64,000 nt of DNA. Source: Carboxylicivirga sp. Its GTDB lineage: Bacteria > Bacteroidota > Bacteroidia > Bacteroidales > Marinilabiliaceae. This document shows positions 8,688-26,116 of the stretch, piece by piece; position 1 is the stretch's first letter, and each line of letters begins with the position of its first letter. The notes under the pieces were generated by a model that searched no databases, had not been told where the DNA came from, and was given only the letters and a program-made list of their open reading frames with translations. A program made the translations under genes and the position numbers. Where the stretch lies: the NCBI GenBank assembly GCA_025210475.1, contig JAOARW010000009.1, forward strand, positions 1 to 64,000, written 5' to 3'.

Positions 8688-9200
8688 ATGAAAAAAATTT
8701 TATTCTTTCTGGCTTTGCTCACTTTGCCAATAGCCGGACAGGCTCAAATTGCAAAGTTTAAGTCAGTATTTACATTGAGTTTTATCAGGCATGTTGGGTG
8801 GACAGAATCGGCAAAAAAAGGTGATTTTGTTATTGGTGTGGTTCGTGATAAAGAAATTTCAGATTGGCTAACAAAGCTATCAACAGGTAAAAAGTTTGGT
8901 TTTCAGAATGTGGTGATTAAAGAGTTTAAATCGCCCGAAGATGTTGTCGATTGCCAGGTTGTTTATGTTTCATCAAATGTGAATTTTGGAAAACATGCCG
9001 CAACTATTGTTAATAAAGTTAATGGTGGTAGTACGTTGATTATTACCGAATCAGAAGGAGCTTGCAATTCCGGATCGATGATAAACTTTGTGGTTAGAGA
9101 TGATAAACTTAAATTTGAGATTCATAAAGCCAATGCAGCTAAGTTTGGTTTACAAATTAGCTCTAAGCTTGAAGGAATGAAAAATGCAATTAGCTTATAA
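8688..9200 (+). CDS. YfiR-like (DUF4154) periplasmic protein
   Basis: About 170 residues with a clear signal peptide (MKKILFFLALLTLPIAGQAQ). The mature part fits the YfiR/DUF4154 family: an AKFKSVFTLSFIRHVGWTE opening, a VIGVVRDKEISDWL strand-helix, the CQVVYVSSNVNFGK core and a C-terminal NFVVRDDKLKFEIHKANAAKFGLQI region. YfiR-type proteins sit in the periplasm and modulate membrane sensor proteins. Placed 9 bases before the MCP gene, it probably acts as an accessory to that receptor; this is inference from position. The ATG at 8688 is chosen; an in-frame TTG at 8682 is also possible. It is the first gene of the 17-kb chemosensory run. Confidence 0.8.
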   Translation: MKKILFFLALLTLPIAGQAQIAKFKSVFTLSFIRHVGWTESAKKGDFVIGVVRDKEISDWLTKLSTGKKFGFQNVVIKEFKSPEDVVDCQVVYVSSNVNFGKHAATIVNKVNGGSTLIITESEGACNSGSMINFVVRDDKLKFEIHKANAAKFGLQISSKLEGMKNAISL

Positions 9201-9209
9201 AGTTTACAC

Positions 9210-10955
9210 ATGAAAAACATCAAACTGAATATTGCCCAAAAACTTCTTGCCGGGTTTGGAGTCATTCTGTTGCTCATCGTGGTGCAGGGTGTCTGGACAT
9301 TCTCGACTTTAACAAGTAGTAAAACTAAGAATAAAGAGTTAACAGAGCTTTATTCACCGTCGACAGCTAAACTTAATAGTTTGGCTGATGTAGTGAATAA
9401 TACTAAGATGCTTATTCGTAGCTGGGTATTTATCGATACTCAGGAAGGAACACCTGATAAGGTGCGTCTTGGCGAATTACATTCGAAAGATTATGTAGTT
9501 CTTAAGGATGAATTGATTGCTTTGAGTAAACAAGGTTGGGATGCTGAAGATACAATAAAGTTAAATCAGCTTATACATCATGTCGATTCCTTGTTTGAAA
9601 TGCAAAAATACGTCATGAGTAGTCTTAATTCATTTGAAGCCTATGAAGACGCAATGGTTTTGTTTGAAGTAGAACCAATGGTTCAGGAAGGTGGTGAGAT
9701 AATCACGCTAACCGAATCGATTGATGCTGAAATTCAAACATTAACCGCCAAGTACGACGAAGTAACTAAAGAGGCTTTGGATCAGAGTAACAGCAGTTTT
9801 ACTACTTTGCAAGTAGTCATTATCATCATGAGTTTATTGGTGATTGCCGGAGCTTTGCTTACAGCCTATTTACTTTATAATTCGATTGTAGCGCCACTTA
9901 ATAAAGGTGTAACTTTTGCCAAGGCAATTGGAGAAGGTGATTTAACAGCCAAGGTTGATGTGGAGCAGAATGATGAAATCGGAGATCTGGCAAAAGCATT
10001 GGTCGCAATGGCCGATAACCTTAAGAATACGGTTAATGCCATTAAATCGAATGCCGATGACCTTGTAACTTCAAGTTCGCAGTTAAAATCAAGTTCACTG
10101 CAGTTGTCGAAAGGTTCTGCCGATCAGGCTGCATCTGCCGAAGAAGTTTCGACTTCGATCGAAGAGATGGTTGCCAATATCGACCAGAATACCGAGAACT
10201 CAATTCAGACTGAGAAAATTACGGTTGAAACAGCCAAGGATGTTGCCGTAGCCGATAATTTATCTTCGCAAGCTGCAAAGGTGATGAAGGACGTTTCGGA
10301 GAAGATCACCATTATTAGTGATATTGCCTTCCAGACTAATATTTTAGCATTAAATGCAGCAGTAGAAGCAGCACGTGCCGGCGAGCACGGTCGAGGTTTC
10401 TCTGTGGTGGCAGCCGAGGTTAGGAAATTAGCTGAGCGCAGTAAGTCGGCAGCTGATGAAATCGTTTCGCTGGTAGCAACCGGATTAAAGGTATCGACAG
10501 AAGCAGGTGAGAAATCTAAAGCTTTGGTTCCGGATATTGAAAGAACAACACAGTTGATTAAGGAAATATCAGCTGCCAGTATGGAGCAGAAAACAGGTGC
10601 TGAACAGATCAACCTGGCCATGCAGCAGTTAAACATGATTACGCAAGAAAATGCGTCGTCATCGGATGAGTTAACACAAAGCTCAGACCAATTAGCTACC
10701 CTGGCTGATAACCTTAACGAAGCTGTTAGTTACTTTAAAGTCGATAAGAAAGCAAGTACCTCAAAGAAGAAGGAAGAATCAAAGGGAACACAAGCGAAAG
10801 TGAAATTTGAAACTCCAAAGGTGGAGAAGAAAATCAAAGCTGAGCAAGGAAACGGAAAAGCCAAGAGCGAAACGCCAAAAGCGCAGCCGCAAAAGGAAAA
10901 TCCATTTACCAACTTTGATAAAGACTTTGATCTTGATAATTACGAGAAATTTTAA
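9210..10955 (+). CDS. Methyl-accepting chemotaxis protein
   Basis: A 581-residue chemoreceptor. One membrane helix near residues 12-32, a periplasmic four-helix-type domain (about 33-195), a second helix (about 196-222, [21 protein letters not shown]), a HAMP domain (about 223-275, ending [19 protein letters not shown]), and a long coiled-coil signalling domain. The hairpin tip that binds CheA/CheW is intact near residues 372-410 ([36 protein letters not shown]). The C-terminal 70 residues are a Lys/Glu/Pro-rich linker ending [18 protein letters not shown]. No classical NWETF-type CheR-binding pentapeptide is present, although the acidic/aromatic tail could be a substitute. It precedes the STAS, CheY, Hpt and CheA genes. 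Confidence 0.95.
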
Positions 10956-10965
10956 GTAATAGATA

Positions 10966-11277
10966 ATGGAGACTTTACCATATACAGTTATTTGTAATGA
11001 ATTGCCCGAAAAATCGATTGTTCGTTTTTCGGGTCAGCTAATTATAAATCACATCGAAAAAATTACCGATGAAGTAAAAAATCAACTCAGTTTTGATAAG
11101 GATCTTCATATAGAAATTAATAATCCCGATAGTATTGATGTAACTTTTATACAGTTATTATTAACACTTAAAACCACACTTAAGGGCAACGGTAAACAAA
11201 CAGTTATTTCATCTGAATTGAACGATGACCTTAAGGTGTTATTAAATAACTCGGGATTTCAATACGTACTTAATTAA
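10966..11277 (+). CDS. Small STAS-like domain protein
   Basis: 103 residues with the alternating strand-helix layout of STAS (anti-sigma-factor antagonist) domains: IVRFSGQLIINHIEKITDEV, LHIEINNPDSIDVTFIQLLLTLKTTLKG, then QTVISSELNDDLKVLLNNSGF. In SpoIIAA-type proteins a Ser in the central loop is phosphorylated; here the equivalent loop reads NPDSIDVTFIQ, so a Ser/Thr target is available. SpoIIE phosphatases act on such proteins and one is encoded at the end of this block (23513-26116), so a partner-switching link is possible. Some chemosensory clusters also contain a STAS protein. It lies 10 bases after the MCP. Confidence 0.7.
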   Translation: METLPYTVICNELPEKSIVRFSGQLIINHIEKITDEVKNQLSFDKDLHIEINNPDSIDVTFIQLLLTLKTTLKGNGKQTVISSELNDDLKVLLNNSGFQYVLN

Positions 11278-11303
11278 GCAATATATAACTAGAAAAATTA
11301 ATT

Positions 11304-11669
11304 ATGGCTAAAACAGTTCTCATCGTTGATGATTCAGAAAGTATCCGCGAAGTAGTCAACTTTACTCTTCAGAATGAAGGTTACGAAGTATTAGTTGGTG
11401 TTGATGGCGAAGATGCACAAAAATTCCTGGATGGCAGAACGATTGATATTGTTATCACTGACCTTCATATGCCAAACCTCGACGGATTAGGATTGATTCG
11501 TAAGATCAGAGAAATTGAGGCATACAAGCATATTCCAATCCTATTCTTAACAACAGAGTCGCAGGCATCTAAAAAAATGGAAGCTAAGCAGGCTGGTGCT
11601 ACAGGTTGGATTATCAAACCATTTGTTCCAGCGAAGTTGTTAAGTGCAATATCGCGTGTCTTAAGATAA
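11304..11669 (+). CDS. cheY: CheY-type response regulator
   Basis: A 121-residue single receiver domain. The acid pocket (D9, D10), phospho-acceptor D53 (ITDLHMPNLDG), switch Thr near residue 83-84 (ILFLTTES) and K105 (IIKPF) are all present. It would take phosphate from CheA (12052-14091) or the separate Hpt protein and act as the diffusible output. With no flagellar switch genes in view, its target is not known. It lies one base before the Hpt gene. Confidence 0.95.
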   Translation: MAKTVLIVDDSESIREVVNFTLQNEGYEVLVGVDGEDAQKFLDGRTIDIVITDLHMPNLDGLGLIRKIREIEAYKHIPILFLTTESQASKKMEAKQAGATGWIIKPFVPAKLLSAISRVLR

Positions 11670-11670
11670 G

Positions 11671-12039
11671 ATGAGAAGGGTAAAAAATATTTTCATAAAA
11701 GAAACTTCTGATAATTTGGCTGTTCTTGAAGAAGAGCTGAAGGATCATAATACCCTTTCAAAAGAGGCTGTGGAAATGGTAATCCGAACCATGCACAATA
11801 TTAAAGGGGCTGCTCCAATGGTAGGATTTAGTGTTTTACCAGAGATTGCAATACCCATTGAACAAGCTTACAGGGGAATCCTTGAGAATGGGCTTGTTGT
11901 GAATGATAACATGGTTGAAAATACCAAAACAGCTGTTACAATAATTCAGGATCTTCTGAACAGCGAAGAAACCCGTGCATCAGAAACGGATGGAGAACAG
12001 AAGGTTTTGATCGATTATTTTAACACGATTACCGGTTAA
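11671..12039 (+). CDS. Stand-alone Hpt domain protein
   Basis: 122 residues, all-helical. The phospho-transfer motif TMHNIKGAAPMVGF puts the active His at residue 42, in the form used by CheA P1 and Hpt domains (HxxKG). There is no kinase domain. It could buffer or relay phosphate between CheA, CheY and other receivers such as the one in CheB. It starts one base after the cheY stop and is followed 12 bases later by cheA, whose own N terminus is a similar Hpt domain, so it may have arisen by duplication of P1. Confidence 0.88.
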   Translation: MRRVKNIFIKETSDNLAVLEEELKDHNTLSKEAVEMVIRTMHNIKGAAPMVGFSVLPEIAIPIEQAYRGILENGLVVNDNMVENTKTAVTIIQDLLNSEETRASETDGEQKVLIDYFNTITG

Positions 12040-12051
12040 AAGCACAAATAA

Positions 12052-14091
12052 ATGATTGATAAGTTTAAGGCGAAATTTGTAGAGGAGTCGAACGATAACG
12101 TTCATGACCTGGAAGAGGCTTTATTGTTGCTCGAAAAAGATATGTCCAATGGCGAAATCATTGAACGTATTTTCCGGGCTATGCACACGCTCAAGGGCGG
12201 TGGCGCAATGTTTGGCTTTAACCAGTTGAGTGAGTTTACGCACCACCTCGAAACAGTTTTCGATTTGGTTAGAAACAACCAGCTAAGTATCACCGATCAT
12301 ATCATCTCCTTAACGTTCGAGTCTATCGATCATATCAAGCACATGCTGGAGGTTGGTGATACTGAAGACGCGGATGAACTGGCTAATCAGGCTTCTTTTA
12401 TCGAGCGGGTTAAGCAGGCATCCAATACCGAAACGGATACACCTCTGAATGTTGTACAGGATACAAACCAGAAAATTCAGAACGATGGATCAAAAACGTT
12501 TCTGATTAATATCAAACCCAACGAAGAAATTCTTAGAAACGGAACTAATCCGTTTTATTTATTAGACGATCTTCATGCAATGGGCGAAGCACGAGTGCTA
12601 GCGTTTAGCGATAAAGTGCCCGCCATATCTAATTTCAATCCGATAAACAGTTATTGCCATTGGCAGGTATTATTAAATACAACTGAATCGGTCAATGAAA
12701 TTAAGGATGTATTCATCTTTGTTGAAGATGAATGTGAAATTAGCATTCACGAAATCAGTGCTGGCAATTTATTATCATTCGAACAGATAAAGCAAAAGCT
12801 TGATGCTGCTGCCGAGTCACAAAAAATGCTTAATAAAGAAGAGCTTGTTGCCATTGCAAGTGCTGTTAACGGCAGTGAAGAGAAGAAAGATACCAAGCGA
12901 AAAGTTCAATTAAAAGAGCACAAGATTTCCAGTATTCGTGTTAATTCGACCAAGATCGATGAGCTGGTAAACCTTGTGAGTGAGTTGGTAACCATTCAGG
13001 CACAGTTAAACTTGTTTGCTGAGAATGATGGAAACCCTGCAGTTATCGCCCTGGCTGAAAATATTCAGAAGCTAAGCCGTCAATTGCGCGATAACGCTTT
13101 CTCAATAAGTCTTATTCCTCTTCAGAGTGAATTAATGCGCTTTCAGCGCCTGGTGCGCGATTTATCCAAGGAACTGGATAAGGAAATCGATTTTGTTATT
13201 GAGGGTGGCGATATTGAGCTTGACAAAAATATCATCGAACACCTCACCGATCCTTTACTTCATATCATCCGTAACGCCGTCGATCATGGTATTGAGATGC
13301 CCGATGAGCGAATTAAGAATGGTAAGTCGCCTAAAGGAACAATCCTTTTCAAAGCTTATTATTCAGGTGCCAGTGTAATGGTGGAAGTGATGGATGATGG
13401 TAAAGGCATCGATCCGGAATTTATCCGCAAAAAAGCCATTGCCCGCGGTATGATCGATGTGAATACCGAATTATCACGTAAAGAAATCTTCGAACTGGTA
13501 TTTCTAAGTGGGTTCTCTACAAAAGAGGAGGTAACCGATGTGTCGGGACGCGGAGTTGGAATGGATGTGGTGAAGAAAAAGATTGGAGAAATCCGCGGCG
13601 AGGTAACGCTTGATTCAGAAATTGGAAAAGGAACTACACTTACGCTTGAACTGCCGATGACACTTTCGATCATCGATGGTTTGTTGGTTAAGGTAGCAAG
13701 CAATCAGTATGTGATTCCGATTGCCAATATCGAAAAGATTTATGCACTTGATTCTGTTTCATTCGGTAAAACCTTCAATCATGTTGTGAATATTGACAAT
13801 GAGCAATATCCATACATTGATTTAAGAGAATCTTTCGAAACCGAAATTAAAGATAAAGGTACTGAGCAGCTGATCCTCGTTAAATACGAAGATCGTCGGG
13901 TTGGCTTGTTAGTCGATCAGGTAATTGGTGAGTACCAAACGGTGGTGAAACCATTGGGCCGCTTCCTTAAGAAACAGGAAAACCTTTCGGGGGCATCCAT
14001 TATGGGTGATGGAACAATTGCCATGGTAATTGATACCAATCGTTTGATTCATAACAATGCCATTAAGAAATACCGAACAAATAAGCAGTAG
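12052..14091 (+). CDS. cheA: Chemotaxis histidine kinase CheA
   Basis: 679 residues with the usual CheA order. P1/Hpt: AMHTLKGGGAMFGF, His45. A linker and P2-like region occupy about residues 130-280, with an ANR-like SILNI... segment not clearly typed. P3 dimerisation helices: RVNSTKIDELVNLVSELV, about 300-360. P4 HATPase: N box HIIRNAVDHGIE, G1 VMDDGKGID, and the VSGRGVGMDVVKKKI G2 box. P5 CheW-like regulatory domain from about residue 540 (LPMTLSIIDGLLVKV). All catalytic boxes are intact. It would phosphorylate CheY and CheB under control of the MCP. A downstream CheW frame may overlap its 3' end, but the preferred cheW start lies just after the cheA stop. Confidence 0.97.
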   Translation: MIDKFKAKFVEESNDNVHDLEEALLLLEKDMSNGEIIERIFRAMHTLKGGGAMFGFNQLSEFTHHLETVFDLVRNNQLSITDHIISLTFESIDHIKHMLEVGDTEDADELANQASFIERVKQASNTETDTPLNVVQDTNQKIQNDGSKTFLINIKPNEEILRNGTNPFYLLDDLHAMGEARVLAFSDKVPAISNFNPINSYCHWQVLLNTTESVNEIKDVFIFVEDECEISIHEISAGNLLSFEQIKQKLDAAAESQKMLNKEELVAIASAVNGSEEKKDTKRKVQLKEHKISSIRVNSTKIDELVNLVSELVTIQAQLNLFAENDGNPAVIALAENIQKLSRQLRDNAFSISLIPLQSELMRFQRLVRDLSKELDKEIDFVIEGGDIELDKNIIEHLTDPLLHIIRNAVDHGIEMPDERIKNGKSPKGTILFKAYYSGASVMVEVMDDGKGIDPEFIRKKAIARGMIDVNTELSRKEIFELVFLSGFSTKEEVTDVSGRGVGMDVVKKKIGEIRGEVTLDSEIGKGTTLTLELPMTLSIIDGLLVKVASNQYVIPIANIEKIYALDSVSFGKTFNHVVNIDNEQYPYIDLRESFETEIKDKGTEQLILVKYEDRRVGLLVDQVIGEYQTVVKPLGRFLKKQENLSGASIMGDGTIAMVIDTNRLIHNNAIKKYRTNKQ

Positions 14092-14092
14092 T

Positions 14093-14539
14093 ATGAAAGA
14101 GCAAATGACGTCAATTATATCGTTTTTAATCAACAAGGAAATATTTGCCTTTGATACTTTAAAGGTGCGTAATATTCTTGAGCTGGATAAGGTGACATGG
14201 GTTCCTAATACCAAAGATTATGTATTGGGAGTTATCAATTTGCATGGTAACATTATACCAATTAGCGACTTGCGAATGATGATGGGAATGGAGGATATTC
14301 AGAACAGTCAGGATACGGCCGTCTTAGTTGTTTCAGATGATGATAAAACAGAATCCTTAATCGGTTTTGTGGTTGATGGAGTTAAAGAAGTGTTTGATAT
14401 TAACGAAGAAGAACTAAAAGAATCTGTGATCAACGGAAATACCGGATTGATTCATAGTTTTAGTGGGTGTATTCAAAAAAATGATGAGTTTATTCACATC
14501 ATTGATTTGCACGAGATAGTTCAGGAAATAGAAAAATAA
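14093..14539 (+). CDS. cheW: CheW-type coupling protein (first copy)
   Basis: About 148 residues, a single CheW beta-barrel domain: ISFLINKEIFAFDTLKVRNILEL, then VLGVINLHGNIIPISDLRMMMGM, the canonical GVINLRGxxxPxxDLR pattern. It joins receptor tips to CheA P5 in the array. The start at 14093, one base after the cheA stop codon, is preferred to an in-frame ATG at 14057 that would overlap cheA by 35 bases. A second, divergent CheW gene follows after 6 bases. Confidence 0.93.
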   Translation: MKEQMTSIISFLINKEIFAFDTLKVRNILELDKVTWVPNTKDYVLGVINLHGNIIPISDLRMMMGMEDIQNSQDTAVLVVSDDDKTESLIGFVVDGVKEVFDINEEELKESVINGNTGLIHSFSGCIQKNDEFIHIIDLHEIVQEIEK

Positions 14540-14545: not shown

Positions 14546-15025
14546 ATGGATCAGGAAGTAAATGCATATCTAACTTTTTCTCTTGGTGACAATAGTTTTG
14601 GCATTCATGTTGAAAAAGTGATTGAAATAAAAGAATATGTCGAGCCTAAGCCCGTGCCGGAGAGTATGGTTTATGTCAAGGGAGTAACCGATCACCGCGA
14701 TCAGATTATTCCGTTAGTGGATGCGGCTGCCAAATTCAACCTGGGACAGGTGGAAATAACACCTCAATCATGTTATGTGGTGCTCGATATCAGCAAAGGA
14801 AACGGCAAGGGAACAATGACCATCGGTATTTTGGTGGATGCTGTTACCGATGTGTTTGAAGCCGATGAATCGAGTTTAAAGCCCATAGAAACAGATTACA
14901 AACCGGGTTATATTTTATCATCGTATCAGAAAGAGGATGATCTTGTAATGATACTGAATGTGGATAAAATATTTAACGAAGTAGATATTGTGAGCCTCGA
15001 TGATGTGTTGAGTGCCGTTAGTTAG
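14546..15025 (+). CDS. cheW: CheW-type coupling protein (second copy)
   Basis: 159 residues, again one CheW domain: YLTFSLGDNSFGIHVEKVIEIKEY at the start and SMVYVKGVTDHRDQIIPLVDAAAKF for the central motif, where the usual GxxxLRG is changed to GVTDHRDQ. It is clearly diverged from its neighbour, so the two are not a recent duplication and may sit at different positions in the array or serve different receptors. Confidence 0.92.
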   Translation: MDQEVNAYLTFSLGDNSFGIHVEKVIEIKEYVEPKPVPESMVYVKGVTDHRDQIIPLVDAAAKFNLGQVEITPQSCYVVLDISKGNGKGTMTIGILVDAVTDVFEADESSLKPIETDYKPGYILSSYQKEDDLVMILNVDKIFNEVDIVSLDDVLSAVS

Positions 15026-15033: not shown

Positions 15034-15897
15034 ATGTTTACAGCTGGTAATAACGATAATAAAAAGGAGCTGGATGCTTTTAAAGCCGAACTATCGGAAA
15101 AGGATTTCCAGGCATTCAGTGACTTTATTTATAGCGAATATGGCATAAAAATGCCCCCTGTTAAGCGCGTGATGCTGCAGGGACGATTATTGAAACGTAT
15201 TCGGGATTTGAACATGAAATCATACACCGAATACAAAGAGTATTTTTTTAGTAAAGAAGGGCAGAAAAAAGAGATATTTAATTTTCTGAATGTTGTAACG
15301 ACAAACAAAACAGATTTTTTTCGCGAACCCATTCACTTTGATTTTCTGAAGGATGAGGTTCTGGCCCAGCATAATGGAAGCGGGACATTTAAAGTTTGGA
15401 GTGCAGGTTGTTCAAGTGGAGAAGAACCTTATACGATTTCCATCGTATTGAACGAATATAAAAGGATAGCACCTGGCTTTAATTTCTCTATTTACGGATC
15501 AGACATCTCCAACAAAGTATTGTCAAATGCTGCGAAGGGGGTTTATGCCGAGAATAAAATTTCGATTATTCCATTGGAACAGAAAAAGCGCTATTTCTTA
15601 AAAAGTAAAGATCGGACTAATCCAACGGTTAGGGTAAAACCGGAATTACAAAGAAATATTGTGCTGAAGCATGTAAACCTAATGGATAGTCATTACGATA
15701 TAGGGGAAACATTTGACGTTATATTTTGTCGTAATGTTTTAATTTATTTTGACAGAGATACACAGGAGAGGGTGATCAGCAAATTGTGCAATTACCTGAA
15801 GCCCGGAGGTATCTTTTTTATAGGTCATTCCGAATCATTATCGGGAATGAAAGTGCCGTTGGAGCACGTAAAACCAACAGTTTTTAGGAAAATATAA
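15034..15897 (+). CDS. cheR: CheR receptor methyltransferase
   Basis: 287 residues. The N-terminal helical domain holds FNFLNVVTTNKTDFFREPIH, the normal CheR TxFFR motif. The SAM-binding site is intact: VWSAGCSSGEEPYTISIVL (motif I), YGSDISNKVL (acidic loop) and FDVIFCRNVLIYFD. It methylates glutamates on MCPs during adaptation. It is the most complete of three CheR-like genes in this block (others at 20497 and 21341). Confidence 0.95.
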   Translation: MFTAGNNDNKKELDAFKAELSEKDFQAFSDFIYSEYGIKMPPVKRVMLQGRLLKRIRDLNMKSYTEYKEYFFSKEGQKKEIFNFLNVVTTNKTDFFREPIHFDFLKDEVLAQHNGSGTFKVWSAGCSSGEEPYTISIVLNEYKRIAPGFNFSIYGSDISNKVLSNAAKGVYAENKISIIPLEQKKRYFLKSKDRTNPTVRVKPELQRNIVLKHVNLMDSHYDIGETFDVIFCRNVLIYFDRDTQERVISKLCNYLKPGGIFFIGHSESLSGMKVPLEHVKPTVFRKI

Positions 15898-15923: not shown

Positions 15924-16823
15924 ATGAGCAATTTATCTGACAAACAACTTTTACGCGAACTCAGGTTACGACTTGAGGAACGGAAAAAGTTAGATAATGA
16001 GATGAAAGAACTTTCGAAAGACTTTCAAAGTGTTACGAAAAAACTTAAAGAATCCGAAGCATTAAAAAGCCATTTCATATCAAACATTTCTAACGAGATA
16101 GTTAATCCGTTTACATCTATTTTAGGTTTGTCAAAAGCCATTCTTTCTGTCGAAAAAAATGACTGGAAGAAAGTTGTATCAATGGTTGCGTTAATTCACA
16201 GCGAGGCATTTAACCTCGATTTTCAATTGCGTAATATATTTGTTGCAGCCAAAATTGAAGCTGGTGAGATTGCTCCTAATATTACAAAGGTTAATATTCG
16301 AAGCCTTGTACAAACAGTTGTTGATTCATTCAATATCATATCGCGAAAAATGGGTATCGATATTAAAATTGAATTTAACATCGAGCATGGTTTTGGAAAG
16401 AACTTCTATTTCAAAACCGATTCAGAGAAGCTTAAGCTTATTTTAAGCAACTTGTTGAATAATGCCTTAAAATACAGTTATAAGGATAGCCAGGTAATTC
16501 TTAAAATGTGGGTAGACGATGATGTGCTGCACGCATCAGTACAGGATTTTGGCACAGGTATTTCAGAAAAAAATCAGAAGATTATATTCGAACGATTCAA
16601 ACGTCTGGACTCAGGTATTAACTCAATTAACCGCGGACATGGTTTAGGCTTGTCCATTACAAAAGCACTATTGGATGTGCTGGGAGGCGATATTGATATC
16701 AAGAGTAAAAAAGGAGATGGATCCGTTTTCTCAGTAGCATTGCCGGAAGCCCGCAATATTATTGAAGGATTTAGTGGCGATGGTAACGACGTTTTCTTCG
16801 ACGACGATGATGAGATTTTTTAA
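15924..16823 (+). CDS. Histidine-kinase-like protein lacking the phospho-acceptor His
   Basis: 299 residues, soluble. An N-terminal coiled coil (LRLRLEERKKLDNEMKELSK) leads into a HisKA-like dimerisation domain and a well-kept HATPase domain (SNLLNNALKYSY N box, VQDFGTGISEKN G1, RGHGLGLSITKALLDVLGG G2). In the H box the usual FLSNMSHEIRTPL reads FISNISNEIVNPF: residue 57, the phospho-His position, is Asn (codon AAC at 16092-16094). His50, seven residues earlier, is not at the phospho-acceptor position. It therefore cannot autophosphorylate in the normal way, yet the ATP site is conserved. It may be an allosteric partner, an ATP sensor or a phosphatase-type regulator. The C terminus is strongly acidic (FFDDDDEIF). 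Confidence 0.85.
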   Translation: MSNLSDKQLLRELRLRLEERKKLDNEMKELSKDFQSVTKKLKESEALKSHFISNISNEIVNPFTSILGLSKAILSVEKNDWKKVVSMVALIHSEAFNLDFQLRNIFVAAKIEAGEIAPNITKVNIRSLVQTVVDSFNIISRKMGIDIKIEFNIEHGFGKNFYFKTDSEKLKLILSNLLNNALKYSYKDSQVILKMWVDDDVLHASVQDFGTGISEKNQKIIFERFKRLDSGINSINRGHGLGLSITKALLDVLGGDIDIKSKKGDGSVFSVALPEARNIIEGFSGDGNDVFFDDDDEIF

Positions 16824-17463: not shown

Positions 17464-18549
17464 ATGCGCATGAAAAAAAAGATTCGAGTTCTAGTTGTTG
17501 ATGATTCTGCGGTTGTCAGACAGAGTTTGTCATCCATCCTTGAATCTGATCCGGATATCGAAGTAATGGGTACAGCTGCGGATCCCATTATTGCGGTGAA
17601 GAAAATAATGAAAGAAATACCGGATGTAATTACTCTTGACATCGAGATGCCACGTATGGATGGACTAACCTTCCTGCGTAAAATCATGTCACAACATCCG
17701 ATTCCCGTTGTGGTTATTTCCAGCCTGACAACTGAAGGAACGGAAGTTGCCATGAAGGCATTGGAATATGGTGCCAGCGAGATCATTGGTAAACCGGCCA
17801 TGAATGCCGCCCAGTTTATTAATGAATCAAAGATAATGTTGTGCGATGCGGTTAAAGCTGCCGCCCAGGTAAAACTAAAGCGTCGTAAAATTGCAACGCC
17901 TGTTGCTCAACCTGTTGTTAAGCCCAAGTATTCTGCTGATGTAATCCTGAATAAAGGTACTGGCCTTAATAAGATAATTGATACCGAGAAGATTATTGTT
18001 TTAGGTGCATCCACAGGAGGTACCGAGGCCATCCGTAATTTCCTTAAAGCATTGCCCGAAAAGGTGCCAGGTATTGCCATCGTTCAGCACATGCCCGAGG
18101 GTTTTACCAAGTCGTTCGCCAATAGTCTCAACAACATTTGCAGCTTAGAAGTTAAAGAAGCCGAAAACGGTGATAAACTTTACCAGGGACGGGTATTAAT
18201 TGCACCAGGTAGTAAGCATATGTTGCTCAAGCGTGTAGGAAAAGAGTACCAGGTGGAAGTGAAAGAAGGACCATTGGTTAACCGCCACCGTCCGTCGGTG
18301 GATGTGTTATTCCGGTCTGCAGCGCGCTATGCAGGAAATAATGCCACCGGTTTATTATTAACAGGAATGGGTAACGATGGAGCTAAAGGTTTACTGGAGT
18401 TAAAAGAGGCTGGTGCTCATACAGTTGCTCAGGATGAAGCATCGTCTGTAGTGTATGGTATGCCCAAAGAAGCTGTTAAATTGGGTGCTGCAGAAAAGGT
18501 CATGCCGCTTGAAAAAATGGCCAACTACTTACTATCTCGTTTAGGTTAA
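17464..18549 (+). CDS. cheB: CheB receptor methylesterase with receiver domain
   Basis: 361 residues. The receiver has D13/D14, phospho-acceptor D59 ([12 protein letters not shown]) and a KPA loop near 110. After a linker (about 130-175) the methylesterase domain carries Ser183 (GASTGG), His209 (VQHMP) and Asp305 (GMGNDGAKG), the full triad. It removes receptor methyl groups and can deamidate glutamines when activated by CheA. Two in-frame ATGs (17464 and 17470) are possible starts. A 36-codon frame overlapping the start (from 17395) is not called. Confidence 0.96.
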
Positions 18550-18599: not shown

Positions 18600-20477
18600 A
18601 TGGTTAAGGTCAATATTAAGAATATCAGAAGCAGATATACGTTACGAGGATTCGTGCTCGGACTCTTTATCTATATATTAATGCTAATAGTTGGGGCTAA
18701 TGTCTTCGAGCATGTTAACCTACCTGTTTCACTTTACAATCTTTACCGAATTTTCCCAGGCTTTATTGTATTGTTAATTTTACCTGCGGGTACAGCATTT
18801 ATAGGCTACTTAATGGCTGGTAACTTCGAATCATTTATTCGCAAACAACGAAAGCACATTAAGCAGGAAGCTAACAAGAGTGAAAAAGTGCTGGAGTTTG
18901 TTGATAACCTTCGACAGGATAATTTCGAATCGAACCTGGATTTGAATCAGCGAAAAGATAAACTTGCTCAGTCATTGTTACGATTACGCGATTACTTAAT
19001 CAAAAGTAAGAAAGATGAAGAGCAGCGTCGTGTGGAAGAAGAGCAAAGAACATGGGTAACTCAGGGATTAGCTCATTTTGGTGAGTTGCTTCGTAAGGAA
19101 AGTGATAACCTGGAGGATTTAAGCTACAATATCATACGCTACCTGGTTGATTACATGAAAATTAATCAGGCCGGATTTTACCTTTTAAACACAATTAATG
19201 ATCGTGATAAGTATTTCGAATTAACAGCCTGTGTGGCATATGACCGAAAGAAATTCGCCGACAAACGCATAAATTGGGAAGAAGGATTGATTGGTCGTTG
19301 TGCTTTGGAGAAAGAAACCATTCACCTGACTGATGTTCCTAATAACTACCTGAACATTACCTCAGGTTTGGGCGACGCCAATCCGCGTTCAATTTTGATT
19401 GTGCCACTTAAGACCAACGATGAAATTTATGGTGTGATTGAGATGGCTTCATTCAAGGAATTTGCCGAATTTGAAGTTGAGTTTGTTGAAAAGATTGCCG
19501 AAAGTATTGCATTGACAATTTCATCGGTTCAAAATACCATTCGTACCACTAAACTGCTGAAGGAAACGCAGAACCAGGCCGAAAGAATGCTTCAGCAAGA
19601 AGAGGAATTGCGTCAGAACCTGGAAGAGATGCAGGCAACTCAGGAAGAAAGCGATCGTCGTGAGGTTGAGATGAAAGGTATTCTGGAAGCCATCGACCAT
19701 GCGGCTATTAGTTCAGAGTTTGAGGTGGATGGTACCTTGATTAATGTGAATCAGAATTTCCTCAGAACCTTCCGGTATAATCCTGAAGAAATCGAAGGAC
19801 AAAATATTAAGATCTTCTTTTTTAAAGATGATGTGGCTGATCTGGATCAGATTCTTACAGATCTGCGAAATGGTCACAACTTCAAAGGTCGCGTGCGTCG
19901 CCGTACCAAGATGGGAGATGAAATATACCTGCTCTCAACCTATACCCCGGTAATCGACCATGAAGGGGAAATAATAAAAATATTAAGCCTCGAAAATGAC
20001 ATTACCGAACAGGTGACGATGGAAGAGGAGCTGAAACACAGCAAAGATGAATTGGGTGTGATGCTCGAAGAGGCTAAAAATGAAATTACGGAGCAATTTA
20101 AGGAAGTTGAAGCTGTTAAAATTCGTAACGAGAAAACATTGGAGGGAGCTCTTGATGCCATTATCACAACGAATAAAGATGGTATTGTTGAGTTCTTTAA
20201 TGTGGCAGCCGAAAAGCTTTGGGGCTATGATCGCTCAGAGGTACTAGGGCAAAACGTAAGTATGCTGTTCTCTGATAATAGCATCGCCAATGATGATTTT
20301 GTTTCGGCCTTTGTGGCAACCGATAAAAATAAAATTATCGGTGAACGACGCGAAGCACCAATCAAGAACAAGGTAGGCAGTGAAGAACCTGTTTTATTCC
20401 TACTTTCAGAGGCTGAAGTAGGCGATGACCATTCGTATACAGCCTTTATTCAGCAGGTTGAAGTGGAACTATTTTAG
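18600..20477 (+). CDS. Membrane GAF-PAS-PAS signalling protein without output domain
   Basis: 625 residues. Two N-terminal membrane helices (about 15-40 and 55-78) with a short loop, a coiled-coil region (about 80-150), a GAF domain (about 155-315, NQAGFYLLNTINDRDKYFEL, GLIGRCALEKETIHLTDVP, RSILIVPLKTNDEIYGVIE), a coiled coil (about 320-355), then two PAS domains (about 360-475 and 510-620, with a PAC-like EIIKILSLENDITEQ between). No kinase, cyclase or phosphatase domain follows. It probably senses a cytosolic ligand or redox state and passes this on to the array or to SpoIIE by protein contact. Its GAF matches that of the 23513 and 22780 proteins in layout. Confidence 0.85.
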   Translation: MVKVNIKNIRSRYTLRGFVLGLFIYILMLIVGANVFEHVNLPVSLYNLYRIFPGFIVLLILPAGTAFIGYLMAGNFESFIRKQRKHIKQEANKSEKVLEFVDNLRQDNFESNLDLNQRKDKLAQSLLRLRDYLIKSKKDEEQRRVEEEQRTWVTQGLAHFGELLRKESDNLEDLSYNIIRYLVDYMKINQAGFYLLNTINDRDKYFELTACVAYDRKKFADKRINWEEGLIGRCALEKETIHLTDVPNNYLNITSGLGDANPRSILIVPLKTNDEIYGVIEMASFKEFAEFEVEFVEKIAESIALTISSVQNTIRTTKLLKETQNQAERMLQQEEELRQNLEEMQATQEESDRREVEMKGILEAIDHAAISSEFEVDGTLINVNQNFLRTFRYNPEEIEGQNIKIFFFKDDVADLDQILTDLRNGHNFKGRVRRRTKMGDEIYLLSTYTPVIDHEGEIIKILSLENDITEQVTMEEELKHSKDELGVMLEEAKNEITEQFKEVEAVKIRNEKTLEGALDAIITTNKDGIVEFFNVAAEKLWGYDRSEVLGQNVSMLFSDNSIANDDFVSAFVATDKNKIIGERREAPIKNKVGSEEPVLFLLSEAEVGDDHSYTAFIQQVEVELF

Positions 20478-20496: not shown

Positions 20497-21339
20497 ATGG
20501 ATTTTAAACGTTATCTGCAAGTGTTGAAAGAGCATTCGCCGTACGATTTTAGTAATTATTCCGATAATTCTATCAAACGACGATTGCAGAAGGTGATAGC
20601 CGATAATGACTTGAGTGTTGATGAGTTATTGCAAAAAACGCAAAACGATACCTGTTTTGTTGAGCGCCTGGTTGAGGAAATTACGGTTAATACAACGGAA
20701 CTTTTTCGTGATCCGGAGTTATGGCCGGTATTTTATTCTCAGTTACTGACACAATTAAAAGGGAAAAAGACTTTTAATATATGGCATGCCGGAAGTAGTT
20801 CGGGCATGGAGGTTTATTCGAATATGATCATCCTAAATGAGTTGGGGTTGCTTGAAAGGGCACGGATTTATGCAACCGATATAAGCAGTAGCATGGTTCG
20901 GCAATGTAAAAGCGGCAGCTTCAGGTATCAGTTCAATAAAGGACAAATTGAAGCCTTTGAGAAAGTTTTGAAGAAGAATCCGATCAACGGCATTTCGAAA
21001 ATTGATTTCACAAAATACTTCGACGTTGATAAGGTGAATGATAAACTGATTGCAAAAGATTTTCTCCGTGAGAAAGTCGATGTTCGTCAGCATGATCTGG
21101 TACAGGAAAAAAGTCCGTTTTATAACAAATTTGATGTTATTTTCTGTCGCAATGTATTGATATATTTTAATGCAGCACTGCAATCCAAGGTATATCAAAT
21201 GTTCCACAATCAATTGTTTCCCAAAGGGTGCATGATTCTGGGTAATCACGAAAGTTTAACCGGATTCTTTAAAACAAAGTTTAAAAAAAGTGGGCCACTG
21301 TATGTAAAAACCAACGCCTTTCATTTTAAGTATCAATAA
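20497..21339 (+). CDS. CheR-like methyltransferase, second copy
   Basis: 280 residues. ITVNTTELFRDPELW is the standard N-terminal motif. Motif I is altered to IWHAGSSSGMEVYSNMIIL (CheR has GCSxGEEPYS), so the first acidic residue and the Pro are lost while the glycines remain. ATDISSSMV and FDVIFCRNVLIYF are intact. It may still bind SAM. It starts 20 bases after the GAF/PAS gene and is followed immediately by another CheR-like gene. Confidence 0.85.
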   Translation: MDFKRYLQVLKEHSPYDFSNYSDNSIKRRLQKVIADNDLSVDELLQKTQNDTCFVERLVEEITVNTTELFRDPELWPVFYSQLLTQLKGKKTFNIWHAGSSSGMEVYSNMIILNELGLLERARIYATDISSSMVRQCKSGSFRYQFNKGQIEAFEKVLKKNPINGISKIDFTKYFDVDKVNDKLIAKDFLREKVDVRQHDLVQEKSPFYNKFDVIFCRNVLIYFNAALQSKVYQMFHNQLFPKGCMILGNHESLTGFFKTKFKKSGPLYVKTNAFHFKYQ

Positions 21340-21340: not shown

Positions 21341-22165
21341 ATGGCAGTAGCTTTTAGCATAAGTGAAATTAGAGAGGTATCCGAACAATTAAGTGTTCGA
21401 ACGGGTATGCCATTTAAGCATATGACCCATTCGTTTCTGAAACGTCGGCTAGCCATGTTTTTTGATAAGCATTCGATTCGCAAGACGGATGATTTATACG
21501 AACGACTGGAGCAAGCGAATTTTGTGGATGGTTTACGTCAGTTCTTTACCATTCATTCAACGGAGCTATTCAGGGATGCCGGATTCTGGAGAAGGCTAAG
21601 AAAGGTATTCCGTGATAATTACTCGATAAAGGATTATCATATTTGGTTTCCGGCCGTAGCTTCAGGCGAAGAATTATACAGTTTGTTGATATTACTTGCG
21701 GAGCTCGATGACGAGCTGAATATTCGTATTACGGTAAATCACGAATCTGAAGCCTCTCTTAAATTAATTAAGCAAGGCATCCTTCAACATCGTAAAATGG
21801 ATACCAATGCATATAACTATAAGCGGTTTGAAGGTAAACAAAACATCGAACAATACTTTGACGAAGTAGAGGATGGTATTCGTTTTAAGATGAATCCTGG
21901 TATTAATATAAACTTTCAAAGAGGTGGTATCGACCTGATTCCAGAAACGGGTAATGCCGATATCATTATAATGCGCAATAGCCTTTTATATTTTACCAAG
22001 GATTACCACGAAGGCATTAAACATGTTATCGATAAGAGTTTAAATAAAGGAGGATACGTTTGTTTGGGTGTAAAAGAACAACTTCCTGCCCCTTATAATG
22101 ATCGTTTCGAGTGTATTGACGATAAAGAAAAGATATATAGTAAGTTTAGTTTTTTACGAGATTAA
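21341..22165 (+). CDS. CheR-like protein with degraded SAM site, third copy
   Basis: 274 residues starting one base after the previous stop. The CheR outline is clear (FFTIHSTELFRDAGFW at the N terminus, ADIIIMRNSLLYFTKDYHEG in the catalytic domain). Motif I has become IWFPAVASGEELYSLLILL, without the first Gly, and the acidic ribose-binding ATDIS is replaced by VNHESEASL. Loss of these residues suggests it no longer methylates and may be a binding or regulatory partner of the active CheRs. Its stop shares an A with the next ATG (TAATG). Confidence 0.8.
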   Translation: MAVAFSISEIREVSEQLSVRTGMPFKHMTHSFLKRRLAMFFDKHSIRKTDDLYERLEQANFVDGLRQFFTIHSTELFRDAGFWRRLRKVFRDNYSIKDYHIWFPAVASGEELYSLLILLAELDDELNIRITVNHESEASLKLIKQGILQHRKMDTNAYNYKRFEGKQNIEQYFDEVEDGIRFKMNPGININFQRGGIDLIPETGNADIIIMRNSLLYFTKDYHEGIKHVIDKSLNKGGYVCLGVKEQLPAPYNDRFECIDDKEKIYSKFSFLRD

Positions 22166-22737
22166 TGATAAAGCCAAAATATAAAGCAGTAGTCATAGGA
22201 GGTTCGGCCGGGAGCTTCTCAGTTGTTACAAAACTCTTGTCGCAATTGAAAGCCGATTTTCCTTTGCCTGTTATTGTGTGTTTACACCGTCTGAAGCATG
22301 TCCGATCAGGTTTGGTTGAAAGTATTCGCTTGAAGTCGGCTTTGGAAGTGATCGAACCCAATGACAAAGAACAGATTGTTGGCGGAAAGGTGTATTTAGC
22401 GCCTTCAAATTATCATATGTTTGTTGAGTACGATGGTACTTTTTCTTTATCAACCGAAGAGCCACTGAATCACAGCCGGCCTTCAATTGATCACACACTT
22501 TCGTCGGCAGCATATGTTTATCGGAATAAATTAATAGGCATTGTTCTTACCGGAGCCAATAAAGATGGTGCCAAAGGAATGAAGGATATCGCTGATAAAA
22601 AAGGCATAACGATTATTCAGGACCCAAAAACCTGCGAGGTTGATACCATGCCCAAAAGTGTTACCCGTTTAATAACACCAGACATGGTTCTGTCTCCTGA
22701 CGAGATACTTAAATATTTAAATCAATTAGCTGAGTAA
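22165..22737 (+). CDS. Stand-alone CheB methylesterase domain
   Basis: 190 residues, only the CheB catalytic domain with no receiver. The triad is kept: Ser14 (IGGSAGS), His41 (VCLHR) and Asp134 (TGANKDGAKG). With no receiver it cannot be switched by CheA phosphorylation and would be constitutive or controlled by partners. It is translationally coupled to the degenerate CheR upstream, which makes a CheB/CheR pairing plausible. Confidence 0.9.
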   Translation: MIKPKYKAVVIGGSAGSFSVVTKLLSQLKADFPLPVIVCLHRLKHVRSGLVESIRLKSALEVIEPNDKEQIVGGKVYLAPSNYHMFVEYDGTFSLSTEEPLNHSRPSIDHTLSSAAYVYRNKLIGIVLTGANKDGAKGMKDIADKKGITIIQDPKTCEVDTMPKSVTRLITPDMVLSPDEILKYLNQLAE

Positions 22738-22779
22738 GGAACGAAAGTTCAAATGGCAGTTGAACGAAATTGAAAACGA

Positions 22780-23490
22780 ATGAAAAAAAATAGATACATT
22801 TTCTTAATAGGCACGCTGTTTTTCCTGTTGGCATTGTTCAAGTATGTATTCTTATCAGTCGAGCTGGAAACATCATTCGTTGTGTTTGAAGTATTATCCT
22901 TTCTGGTGGTTTTATTTCTGATTTATTTTGTTCTGAATTATATTGAAACCTGTACCAGCGCCAATATGCAAAAGGGAATGGATAAGGATTGCATTAAGCG
23001 TTTGGACGAGATTAAACGATTAAAGGCAAAACTTAAGCAGTACGAACAAAGTAATTCTGAAAGCAGTATAAAAGCATCCGAGGTGAATGGTTTACTATCC
23101 GATTTAAAAGCAAATATTCACCCAAAAGAGGAATCAACAGCCAAAGATCTATTAAGCTGTTTGATCAAACGTTATGAAATAATGGCGGGTGTGGCTTACC
23201 ATAAAGTTGATGCAACTTATGTTCCTGTTAAAACTTTTGGATTGGAAGAGGATTTTAACATTTCATCCATTCAGGAGGAAGATGGTTTACATGCTCAGGC
23301 CATTAAGGATAATAAAGCAATGGAGGTTGAAGATGTACCTGAAGATTATATCGTCGGATCAGGATCTGGTAGTTCAAAACCATTGTTCTTATACATTTTG
23401 CCTTTAATTGAAAAAGGTGTGGTGCTCGAAATAGCAACTTTTAAAAAGCTCAATATAACATCTGTTTGGGAGCAATTGCAAACGAATTAA
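22780..23490 (+). CDS. Membrane-anchored GAF-like protein
   Basis: 236 residues. Two membrane helices (about 5-25 and 33-56), a coiled coil (about 65-95), and a C-terminal GAF-like domain (about 110-230: LIKRYEIMAGVAYHKVDATYVPVKTFGL, DGLHAQAIKDNKAMEVEDVPEDYIV, PLFLYILPLIEKGVVLEIATF). The EVEDVPEDY motif parallels the TDVPNNY and TEVPDDY motifs of the GAF domains at 18600 and 23513, so the three form a local GAF family. No output domain is present. Confidence 0.75.
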   Translation: MKKNRYIFLIGTLFFLLALFKYVFLSVELETSFVVFEVLSFLVVLFLIYFVLNYIETCTSANMQKGMDKDCIKRLDEIKRLKAKLKQYEQSNSESSIKASEVNGLLSDLKANIHPKEESTAKDLLSCLIKRYEIMAGVAYHKVDATYVPVKTFGLEEDFNISSIQEEDGLHAQAIKDNKAMEVEDVPEDYIVGSGSGSSKPLFLYILPLIEKGVVLEIATFKKLNITSVWEQLQTN

Positions 23491-23512
23491 TTTTACCGGT
23501 TACGCTCAAGAT

Positions 23513-26116
23513 ATGGCTAAACTATATAGAAAAATAAAGCGATTAATATCCATGTCTGTTCTAACAGAACGCGACTGGTATATGCTTTCGCTCGGTCTCT
23601 TCCTTTTACTTTTGCTGATTTGGTCAGGATTTATGTCATTCAATGACTTAAAGTTCAATGGAAGAAATATTGTGGTTATTCACCGATCTTTGTTGGTGTG
23701 GGGAATTGACTTGTTAATTGTTTCAATTCCAATTTGCATTCTGGCCATTATCAATTACAACCGTGAGCAAAAGAAGAAACTTAGCCTTGAAATAAAGAAA
23801 CTTAAAAATCAATTGAGCCACAACATTGATTTGGCTGAAAAGATTGGTAAGGGTGATCTGGATGATATCAAATTAGAAGAAGGGCGTCTTTCCGAAACGC
23901 TTTATAATCTGGGCGCCAATCTTAAAAATACCAAATCAAAGGAGGAAGCCTATAACTGGATCTCGAAGGGGAAAGAGCACATCTCTGATATTTTAAGAAG
24001 ACATAATAAAGTAAACCATCTGGCAGATGACGTAATCCGTGGAATAATCGAATATTCCGGTGGTGTTCAAGGATCATTGTATCTGCTGCAAGGCAATGAA
24101 CTGGTTAATATCGCCACATTTGCGCATAACCGAAAGCGTTTTGAAAAGCAAACCATTCCAATTGGTAAAGGACTTATTGGCGATGTAGCTTACGAAAAGC
24201 AGTTGATTTATCGCACTGAAGTACCCGATGATTATTTTCATATAACCTCAGGTTTATTAGGCGATCGCAAACCTAAAAGTCTGATCATCGTTCCGTTGCT
24301 GCAGGAAGAAGAACTGCAGGGGGTATTTGAGATTGGGTATTTACAGAACAGTTTGCCGAAACACGTGCTTAAGTTTGCTGAAGAGTTAAGTAGCGTTATT
24401 GGGGGTACCTTTTACAACCTTAAAATAAATGAGCGAACTGAGCTGCTCCTGAAAGAATCGCAGGAGATGACGGTGACGCTTAAGGAGAACGAAAAGCAGT
24501 TGCAGCTAAATGCCGCAGAAATGCTGGAGGCTCAGGAAGAATTAGAAAAATCGAATAAACTACTGGAAGGTCATATACAAGAGGTGGAACACGCACAGCA
24601 GCGCCTGGAAGCCCTTTTGACGAATGCCTCGGAGTTTATTTCCATTTACAACGAAAAGCAGGAACTTGTATTTGAAAGTCCGTCTGTCAAGCAAATTTTG
24701 GGTTATGGTCCGGACGATGAAGTAACCGGCATGGATCCTGAGTTGATGACACCAAGGGGCTACAAAACAATCAATGCCTTATTTCAGTATCTGCTGGGAA
24801 CACCGGGAGGCGAGCAAACGGCTCAGTATACTTATCTGAAAAAGAGCGGTGAAAAATTGTTCCTTGAAACAACCGGAAAGAACCTGTTACACGATCCGGC
24901 TATAAAAGGCATTATTTTTAACACGCAAGATATAACGGAACGAAAGCGTGCTGAGAAAGAAGAGCGCATGAAGAGCCGTATGCAATCGCTTTCGGAGAAT
25001 TCGCCGGATATGATTATTCGTATCAACACTGGCGGGAAGCTGGTATATGTCAATCCTAAGGTGTCTGATTTTGTTGGTGTACCGGCATCTGATTTGGTTA
25101 AGAAGAGAGTTACTGAATTAAAAATCGATGAGCGCTTTAAAGATTACATGCTTGACTCGCTGAAGCAAATCAGGGGTGGCGAAAAACAGATTATCTCAGA
25201 GATAGAAATTGAAGCTGGCGAGCAGATGCTGATCATGGAGATTAAAGCCATTCCGGAGCTGAATGAAGAAAAGGATTTGGAATCAGTATTGTTTGTAGCT
25301 CACGATATGACCGAGTTCAAGAAGATTGAACAGGAGATAAAGGAAAAGAACAAAAAGATATCGGACAGTATCAATTATGCTCAGCGTATTCAAACAGCCA
25401 TTTTGCCGGATACCAATGTGCTGCAGCAATTTTTCCCACGCTCATTTATCTTTTATCGTCCTAAGGATGTGGTAAGTGGCGATTTTCCATGGATGTTTAA
25501 AAAGGATAACCATTTTTATGTGGCGGCTGTTGACTGCACCGGGCATGGCGTACCGGGAGCTCTGCTTTCATTTATTGGTTACTTCCTGATGAATAACATT
25601 GTTAATGCCAGCGATAATGTAACGGCATCGGAGTTGTTGGATCAGTTGCACCTCGATGTGCGCCGAACACTTCGTCAGGATCAGGAAGGATCCAATGGTC
25701 GTGATGGTATGGATCTGGCCTTGGTGAAGATTGACCTGAACTCAAACGAAATTCAGTTTTCAGGTGCACATAACCCGCTTTATTACCTCAGCGATGGTGA
25801 ATTAACCGTCTACAAAGGTTCGCGTAAAGGAATTGGTGGTAAACCACTGGCCCGTAAGGTGGAAAAAGACTTTGAAAATCACGTTGTTCAATACAAGAAG
25901 GGAGATCAATTCTTTATTTTCTCCGATGGATTACCCGATCAGGTTGGTGGCCCTAAAGGACGTAAGTATCAGTCCAAGCGTATACGTGAGGCATTGGAAT
26001 TGGAGCCAAACCAAACGATGGCTCATTTTGAGCGTCATTTCTCCAATGATTTCTACGATTGGATGGGTGAATGCAAGCAGGTGGACGATGTGCTGTTAAT
26101 AGGTATTGAGTTGTAG
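23513..26116 (+). CDS. Membrane GAF-PAS-PAS-SpoIIE (PP2C) phosphatase
   Basis: 867 residues. Two membrane helices (about 25-45 and 60-82), coiled coil, GAF (about 165-300, GKGLIGDVAYEKQLIYRTEVPDDYFHITSG), coiled coil (about 305-365), PAS/PAC (about 368-480), PAS/PAC (about 492-610) and a C-terminal SpoIIE-type PP2C domain from about 640. Metal-binding motifs are visible: DVVSGDF, VDCTGHGVPGALLS, GMDLALVKIDL and FIFSDGLPDQVGG. It probably dephosphorylates a Ser/Thr-phosphorylated partner, with the STAS-like protein at 10966 as a candidate. The stop codon lies inside a hairpin terminator that ends the chemosensory run. Confidence 0.93.
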   Translation: MAKLYRKIKRLISMSVLTERDWYMLSLGLFLLLLLIWSGFMSFNDLKFNGRNIVVIHRSLLVWGIDLLIVSIPICILAIINYNREQKKKLSLEIKKLKNQLSHNIDLAEKIGKGDLDDIKLEEGRLSETLYNLGANLKNTKSKEEAYNWISKGKEHISDILRRHNKVNHLADDVIRGIIEYSGGVQGSLYLLQGNELVNIATFAHNRKRFEKQTIPIGKGLIGDVAYEKQLIYRTEVPDDYFHITSGLLGDRKPKSLIIVPLLQEEELQGVFEIGYLQNSLPKHVLKFAEELSSVIGGTFYNLKINERTELLLKESQEMTVTLKENEKQLQLNAAEMLEAQEELEKSNKLLEGHIQEVEHAQQRLEALLTNASEFISIYNEKQELVFESPSVKQILGYGPDDEVTGMDPELMTPRGYKTINALFQYLLGTPGGEQTAQYTYLKKSGEKLFLETTGKNLLHDPAIKGIIFNTQDITERKRAEKEERMKSRMQSLSENSPDMIIRINTGGKLVYVNPKVSDFVGVPASDLVKKRVTELKIDERFKDYMLDSLKQIRGGEKQIISEIEIEAGEQMLIMEIKAIPELNEEKDLESVLFVAHDMTEFKKIEQEIKEKNKKISDSINYAQRIQTAILPDTNVLQQFFPRSFIFYRPKDVVSGDFPWMFKKDNHFYVAAVDCTGHGVPGALLSFIGYFLMNNIVNASDNVTASELLDQLHLDVRRTLRQDQEGSNGRDGMDLALVKIDLNSNEIQFSGAHNPLYYLSDGELTVYKGSRKGIGGKPLARKVEKDFENHVVQYKKGDQFFIFSDGLPDQVGGPKGRKYQSKRIREALELEPNQTMAHFERHFSNDFYDWMGECKQVDDVLLIGIEL

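Follow-up and report, generated by a model that had tools for sequence, protein, structure and literature searches.

A same-strand chemosensory block in Carboxylicivirga

We analyzed a stretch of 64,000 nucleotides (the window; contig JAOARW010000009.1 of assembly GCA_025210475.1, positions 1 to 64,000) from a Carboxylicivirga relative of the Bacteroidales whose genome is available as a 7.4-Mb draft in 121 contigs. Pfam matches and inspection of the reading frames revealed a chemosensory block at positions 8688 to 26116, with 18 genes on the same strand in the order listed below, rather than the 16 counted in an earlier note made from the sequence alone. That note had named a methyl-accepting chemotaxis protein (MCP)/CheA/W/Y/R/B/D set, two CheW, a free Hpt, three CheR-like proteins, two CheB, a STAS protein, and a SpoIIE phosphatase, all of which Pfam identified; two of its three GAF proteins were also recovered, the third (22780 to 23490) being GAF-like by eye. 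The STAS gene, which it took for the opening gene, is the third, preceded by a YfiR/HmsC-like gene and the MCP gene. Its list omitted the histidine kinase-like gene at 15924 to 16823, which is the most informative part of the block and the main subject of this report. The genes are as follows (Pfam accessions with E values in parentheses).

8688..9200, + strand: YfiR/HmsC-like protein (PF13689, 1.9e-29), directly 5′ of the MCP gene; in 22/23 family stretches
9210..10955, + strand: MCP with HAMP and signaling domains (Pfam), 34H-type length, each helix 7 residues shorter than in Escherichia coli Tar; C-terminal NYEKF pentapeptide-like end
10966..11277, + strand: STAS-only protein, CheS-like (PF01740, 3e-6); STAS fold matches; upstream of CheA in 31/32 loci
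11304..11669, + strand: CheY, single-domain response regulator (PF00072, 1.9e-27); most conserved protein of the block
11671..12039, + strand: free Hpt protein with HxxKG motif (PF01627, 1.4e-8); detected in 18/23 family loci and 0/6 core loci
12052..14091, + strand: CheA with Hpt, dimerization, ATPase, and CheW domains (Pfam); no P2 or receiver match
14102..14539, + strand: CheW 1 (PF01584, 9.5e-31)
14546..15025, + strand: CheW 2 (PF01584, 6.6e-28)
15034..15897, + strand: CheR 1 (PF01739, 5.8e-60)
15924..16823, + strand: histidine-less HisKA-type protein of 299 residues (HATPase_c, 3.7e-23; HisKA, 0.0018); Asn57 at the phospho-acceptor His position, E58/N61 (ExxN), ATP boxes, acidic C-terminal tail
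16835..17311, + strand: CheD (PF03975, 1.8e-26)
17464..18549, + strand: CheB 1, receiver plus methylesterase (PF01339, 2.2e-67; PF00072, 5.1e-22)
18600..20477, + strand: GAF-PAS-PAS protein without a recognized output domain (Pfam); frequent core partner
20497..21339, + strand: CheR 2 (PF01739, 2.8e-37); family-specific tail
21341..22165, + strand: CheR 3, divergent (PF01739, 1.2e-17), no CheR_N domain match; family-specific tail
22165..22737, + strand: CheB 2, methylesterase domain without receiver (PF01339, 1.5e-49); family-specific tail
22780..23490, + strand: divergent GAF-like protein, no Pfam match at an E value of ≤0.01; family-specific tail
23513..26116, + strand: GAF-PAS-SpoIIE/PP2C phosphatase (PF07228, 7.6e-16), the phosphatase part resembling SiaA (175 bits versus a cutoff of 700); family-specific tail

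A conserved core and a family-specific tail

All 23 loci compared within the family shared the gene order. Records with the same CheA at 73 to 86% identity carry the names Carboxylicivirga, Saccharicrinis, Marinilabiliaceae, or Bacteroidales. Sixteen of the 18 genes were present in all 23 stretches, the YfiR gene in 22 (the only stretch without it is cut at the MCP gene), and the free Hpt gene in 18. Because the order is kept across these loci, the 18-gene arrangement goes far beyond chance, and the same-strand block perceived in the earlier note is real.

The kinase-like gene led to 64 further loci, all in other families of the order, whose common core was STAS-CheY-CheA-CheW-CheR-kinase-like-CheD-CheB, often with MCP genes interspersed. 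CheA was nearby in 40 of the 64; where at least 800 bases were available upstream (32 of those 40), cheY and STAS were each found in 31. A GAF-PAS gene lay 3′ of cheB in 30 of the 51 order loci with room for it. Tail genes were counted in the 44 other-family loci with 5 kb of room past cheB: a SpoIIE gene followed cheB in three and a GAF-like gene in one, while same-strand CheR2, CheR3, and CheB2 genes were found in none (a CheB2-like gene lies on the opposite strand in loci L264 and L266, and a SpoIIE gene is present outside the counting rule in L271 and L274). Because these counts are so low, we regard the CheR2-CheR3-CheB2-GAF-SpoIIE tail as mostly an addition of the family.

Within the tail, the S-adenosylmethionine-binding stretch of CheR3 is altered relative to that of CheR1, and judging from its sequence the protein may be catalytically changed. 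Several relatives (stretches L060 to L065 and L071) carry second, divergent CheA systems, in which the kinase-like gene had no strong match, only generic kinases of at most 97 bits being found. A promoter scan returned 52 sites, no excess over the shuffle mean of 52.1; terminator-like sites exceeded the shuffles (24 versus 13.7).

A kinase-like protein without the phospho-acceptor histidine

The kinase-like protein combines a HisKA-type helical domain with an ATPase domain, as seen in the Pfam matches, the AlphaFold model, and the structure matches. The match to HATPase_c was strong and that to HATPase_c_2 marginal (28.0 bits against a cutoff of 27.4, and 26.5 bits in another search). Ordinary kinases mostly carry the sequence S-H-E-I-R-T-P, whose counterpart in the kinase-like protein is mostly [ST]-N-E-I-[VI]-N-P. 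Conservation was counted on 123 sequences, i.e., 105 distinct rows, one of them truncated at the His position. The phospho-acceptor His position was Asn (N57) in 104/104 rows, with E58 kept in 103/104 and N61 in 104/104. In the ATP boxes, N176, N180, and G210 were found in 105/105 rows and G238, G240, and G242 in 104/104, the ATP-box residues checked being kept in 90 to 105 rows overall. Among 21 ordinary kinases from the same retrieval, used as a control, 18 had the usual His, two did not match the pattern, and the match in the last lay outside an H-box. The acidic, aromatic C-terminal tail was conserved as well. At a mean identity of 87% in the 23 family loci, the protein ranked with CheY (95%) as one of the two most conserved of the block.

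Distribution and neighborhood of the kinase-like gene

In a sample of 295 genomes of the order (kinase-like gene called at an E value of ≤1e-60, CheA at ≤1e-40), the kinase-like gene was found in 67, all with CheA, and in none of the 204 genomes lacking CheA. It lay directly before cheD in 59 of the 64 loci (three of the others were contig ends and two were different), at a spacing of ≤15 bases or overlapping in 51 of the 59, and after cheR in 58 of the 64. In a phylum sample of 395 genomes, 24 had a match at an E value of ≤1e-40; the window's gene scored 562 bits, and the other matches listed were ordinary kinases of 140 to 156 bits. A literature search, mostly without subscription papers, returned no title on a Bacteroidales chemosensory class or on a chemotaxis operon with a histidine-less kinase. 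The near-invariant kinase-like protein, its gene holding a constant place between cheR and cheD and confined among these 295 genomes to those with CheA, offers a single gene to test.

A putative phosphatase of phosphorylated CheY

Because the His is lost while the HisKA phosphatase residue, N61, is kept, we read the kinase-like protein as a probable phosphatase of phosphorylated CheY (CheY~P). According to PMC3510030, the equivalents of N61 in CrdS (N375) and HK853 (T264) are required for phosphatase but not kinase activity, and the same paper describes CheX as using an ExxN motif. The conserved tail has a parallel in WalK, where the response regulator is bound by an acidic tail containing a Trp (PMC9087282). 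Matches to the CheC, CheX, CheZ, and FlhA models (the last being the only flagellar family searched) numbered zero each in the draft genome, although each model matched some of 14 control genomes. These results agree with the absence of flagellar and CheC/CheZ genes remarked on in the earlier note, and no known signal-ending enzyme was thus found for this array by the CheC, CheX, and CheZ models.

Several observations weigh against this reading. The residue equivalent to E58 in ordinary HisKA proteins is described in PMC3510030 as required for kinase but not phosphatase activity, and a His-to-Ala change in CrdS is said there to have cost part of the phosphatase activity. Because E58 and the ATP site are also kept, phosphotransfer to another target is possible. 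The AlphaFold model is of moderate quality (mean predicted local distance difference test score [pLDDT], 74.1; residues 280 to 299, <50). As for the distribution, 24 of the 91 CheA-bearing genomes lack the gene, and the Fisher P value for its co-occurrence with CheA is too strong because the genomes are related. In favor of the reading, genomes with CheA at an E value of ≤1e-115 carried the gene in 67 of 75 cases and those with weaker CheA in 0 of 16, although this cutoff was set after the values had been seen and just past it lies a genome (G519, 1.8e-114) without the gene. The eight exceptions, with a close CheA and no kinase-like gene, were inspected in ten stretches. In six of the eight genomes, which also speak for the reading, none of cheR1, cheD, and cheB1 was found near cheA, some contigs ending early and one genome (G658) having a weak CheR2-like match. 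Of the other two, one locus (L292) lacks cheD but has cheR-cheB, and the other (L296), which counts against the reading, keeps cheR-cheD-cheB with nothing in place of the kinase-like gene.

The main rival is that the protein is a DivL-like pseudokinase, which upon binding to CheY~P or CheA relays the state allosterically, without dephosphorylation. The missing His and the intact ATP boxes would suit such a role, and DivL (4q20) was the third-best match in the structure search with the model, although HK853 complexes ranked first and second; the invariance of N61, a phosphatase-specific HisKA position, and the lack of a CheC, CheX, or CheZ match in the genome make this rival somewhat unlikely. 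The protein's ATPase domain could instead phosphorylate another protein in trans, be it the free Hpt, the CheA P1 domain, or STAS, in keeping with the retention of E58 and the ATP boxes and with the presence in the operon of an Hpt gene with an HxxKG motif. We consider this improbable, as the free Hpt was detected in none of the six core loci with the kinase-like gene and STAS has no canonical Ser.

A CheS-like STAS protein next to CheY and CheA

The STAS-CheY-CheA order also occurs on Shinella and Methylosinus plasmids, and Aeromonas has MCP-CheY-STAS-CheA. A STAS profile found the Shinella, Methylosinus, and Aeromonas proteins plus one from Azospirillum at 27 to 42 bits; a search with the window STAS did not retrieve the small proteins encoded before cheY in Rhodobacteraceae loci. 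The stretch at the conserved Asp is alike in Methylosinus (EIDLTFIQLL) and the window (SIDVTFIQLL). According to PMC12654446 and PMC8429497, CheS of Sinorhizobium and Agrobacterium is a STAS-only protein that alters the flow of phosphate to CheY1 and binds to CheA, and the window STAS, from sequence and gene position, resembles such a CheA partner. The likeness lies in its being a STAS-only protein of STAS fold beside CheY and CheA (31/32 loci) and in a D-hydrophobic-[ST]-F-x-Q-L stretch common to it and the STAS proteins of the Methylosinus and Shinella clusters, the sequences used for this comparison; the block differs in having one CheY rather than two.

In the earlier note, STAS and SpoIIE were taken to form a Ser/Thr partner-switching branch linked with the chemosensory array. 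In 80 of the 81 distinct STAS proteins encoded just upstream of cheY, the canonical phospho-Ser position holds Leu, Ile, or Val, with Thr in the remaining one. Because the STAS profile matched no PDB sequence at an E value of ≤10, this position rests on comparison with a D-S-A-G stretch in Aeromonas, whose STAS (encoded after CheY and outside the 81) keeps the Ser, and on the position in SpoIIAA. Some observations favor the note's idea: the residue that follows is Thr or Ser in 62/81, so phosphorylation there is possible, the STAS model (pLDDT, 90.3) matches RsbV and SpoIIAA best, the kinase-like protein has its marginal HATPase_c_2 match, and SpoIIE genes lie near the core also in L247, L248, L254, L271, and L274. 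As the note expected, STAS and SpoIIE genes co-occur inside the family (23/23 loci); outside it, SpoIIE follows the core in only 3/44 loci while STAS stays, a pattern that the note had itself listed in part as speaking against its idea. Pfam found no separate RsbW/SpoIIAB-type HATPase kinase in the block, STAS-CheY-CheA occurs in other phyla, Alphaproteobacteria and Aeromonas having that core as well, and the STAS protein fits what is published for CheS. We therefore rejected STAS-SpoIIE partner switching, now very improbable, as the main reading on the grounds of STAS residue conservation, the lack of an RsbW-type kinase in the block, and the missing co-conservation of SpoIIE. A STAS protein in a chemotaxis operon points first to CheS, which corrects a tempting misreading.

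Two small RsbW-like genes lie elsewhere in the genome, on contigs C52 and C30, and the STAS profile had no match in either stretch. The C52 gene sits among apparent housekeeping genes. The C30 gene is found, together with one for a SpoIIE phosphatase, in an iron-sulfur, hydrogenase-like cluster (L286:5950-8175), a possible separate module.

Receptors, genome setting, and output

The genome has three CheW-domain matches, all in the block (CheA and the two CheW proteins), and 24 MCP-signaling matches, two of which are pieces of one split gene, giving 23 receptor genes. The block is the main, single chemotaxis-type signaling operon of the cell, serving these 23 receptors; as the earlier note perceived, it is a complete chemosensory system of unusual gene set, here in a genome without an FlhA match. 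Compared with E. coli Tar, the window MCP and six of the eight other MCP loci fetched from the genome were shorter by 7 residues both before and after the tip (the other two could not be measured by the pattern).

Two side observations concern the window MCP. It ends in NYEKF (10926 to 10955), resembling the NWETF end of Tar, which is the tether for CheR; none of the six other MCPs measured ends so. Directly before it in 22 of the 23 family stretches (8688 to 10955 in the window) lies the YfiR/HmsC-like gene, whose product might partner the receptor as a periplasmic sensor.

Gliding, proposed in the earlier note, is a plausible output: GldL is present in the genome, with PorP/SprF, GldM, and GldN genes adjoining its gene, and gliding is attributed to bacteria of the host's family. 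Because gld genes function both in gliding and in type IX secretion, however, movement is an output that we infer, which tempers this part of the interpretation. The system might instead control gene expression or biofilm formation, an alternative cellular function (ACF)-like output that could hold even if the kinase-like protein is a phosphatase. The block has no motility gene, and its SpoIIE part resembles SiaA, a biofilm regulator, at a score far under the cutoff. An ACF-like output seems unlikely given the 23 receptor genes, the CheY being single-domain and the only free response regulator of the block, and the lack of a diguanylate cyclase or DNA-binding domain among the block's Pfam matches.

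Elsewhere in the window, positions 43842 to 53294 encode a protein of 3,150 amino acids, in which FG-GAP repeats and 12 divergent stretches of InlB B-repeat type occur along with a type IX secretion tail, suggesting working type IX secretion. A 434-amino-acid protein with a reverse transcriptase domain is encoded at 654 to 1958.

A model for signaling by the block

As the best explanation of the whole, we propose with moderate confidence a single chemotaxis operon with a CheS-like STAS protein, a kinase-like CheY~P phosphatase, and a likely gliding output. The 34H receptors, of one length class, would work with CheA and the two CheW proteins and be adapted by CheR, CheB, and CheD, with CheY~P as the output and surface (gliding) movement as its most likely target. 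STAS, as a CheS-like partner of CheA, would shift phosphate flow. The kinase-like protein, most likely the CheY~P phosphatase, would be tuned by or with CheD and replace CheC, CheX, and CheZ; CheC works with CheD in Bacillus. The required His was perhaps lost since the protein became the off-switch of the system.

More generally, and only tentatively, Bacteroidales chemotaxis would end its signal via a histidine kinase turned dedicated, CheD-linked CheY~P phosphatase, in a system steering movement without flagella. If true, this would add one more kind of chemotaxis phosphatase to CheZ (with the CheZ-like CheT), CheC/CheX/FliY, and the bifunctional CheA; a kinase scaffold would have been kept for the reverse reaction only, adding a core protein to chemotaxis.

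Comparison with known systems

The earlier note did not recognize the block as a described chemosensory class. For the core, this needs amending: the receptors measured read as 34H because both of their helices fall 7 residues short of those of Tar (36H), and 34H receptors are linked to class F8 in PMC11253619 and PMC7184735. In a 50-row CheA tree (midpoint root, several long branches, and no F8-labeled reference), the Bacteroidota rows grouped with alphaproteobacterial STAS-type rows, Shinella included, and Aeromonas rather than with E. coli F7 or with the Rhodobacteraceae rows labeled F7 by gene content (98/94). From the receptor length and the CheA phylogeny, F8 is thus the nearest class, membership being unproven. 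The Shinella cluster, with a cheW, three MCP genes, and another cheW, fits the F8 make-up published for Rhizobium leguminosarum (PMC8429497). The window block differs from F8 in its CheD, histidine-less kinase, free Hpt, and tail genes, and in a genome without an FlhA match. The histidine-less kinase, however, appears in no class description that we found, and the note's view is thus partly right.

The kinase-like protein would share its role with CheC, CheX, and CheZ, and the ExxN pair with CheX (PMC3510030); its fold, of HisKA-type helices and an ATPase domain, is unrelated to theirs. In DivL, a Tyr replaces the phospho-acceptor His; the kinase-like protein, also of HisKA fold with that residue replaced, has an Asn instead, no sensor domain, and a fixed place in a chemotaxis operon. 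With HisKA histidine kinases, finally, it shares the dimerization and histidine phosphotransfer (DHp) plus HATPase fold and the N and G boxes, and it differs in the phospho-acceptor His itself, which is Asn throughout.

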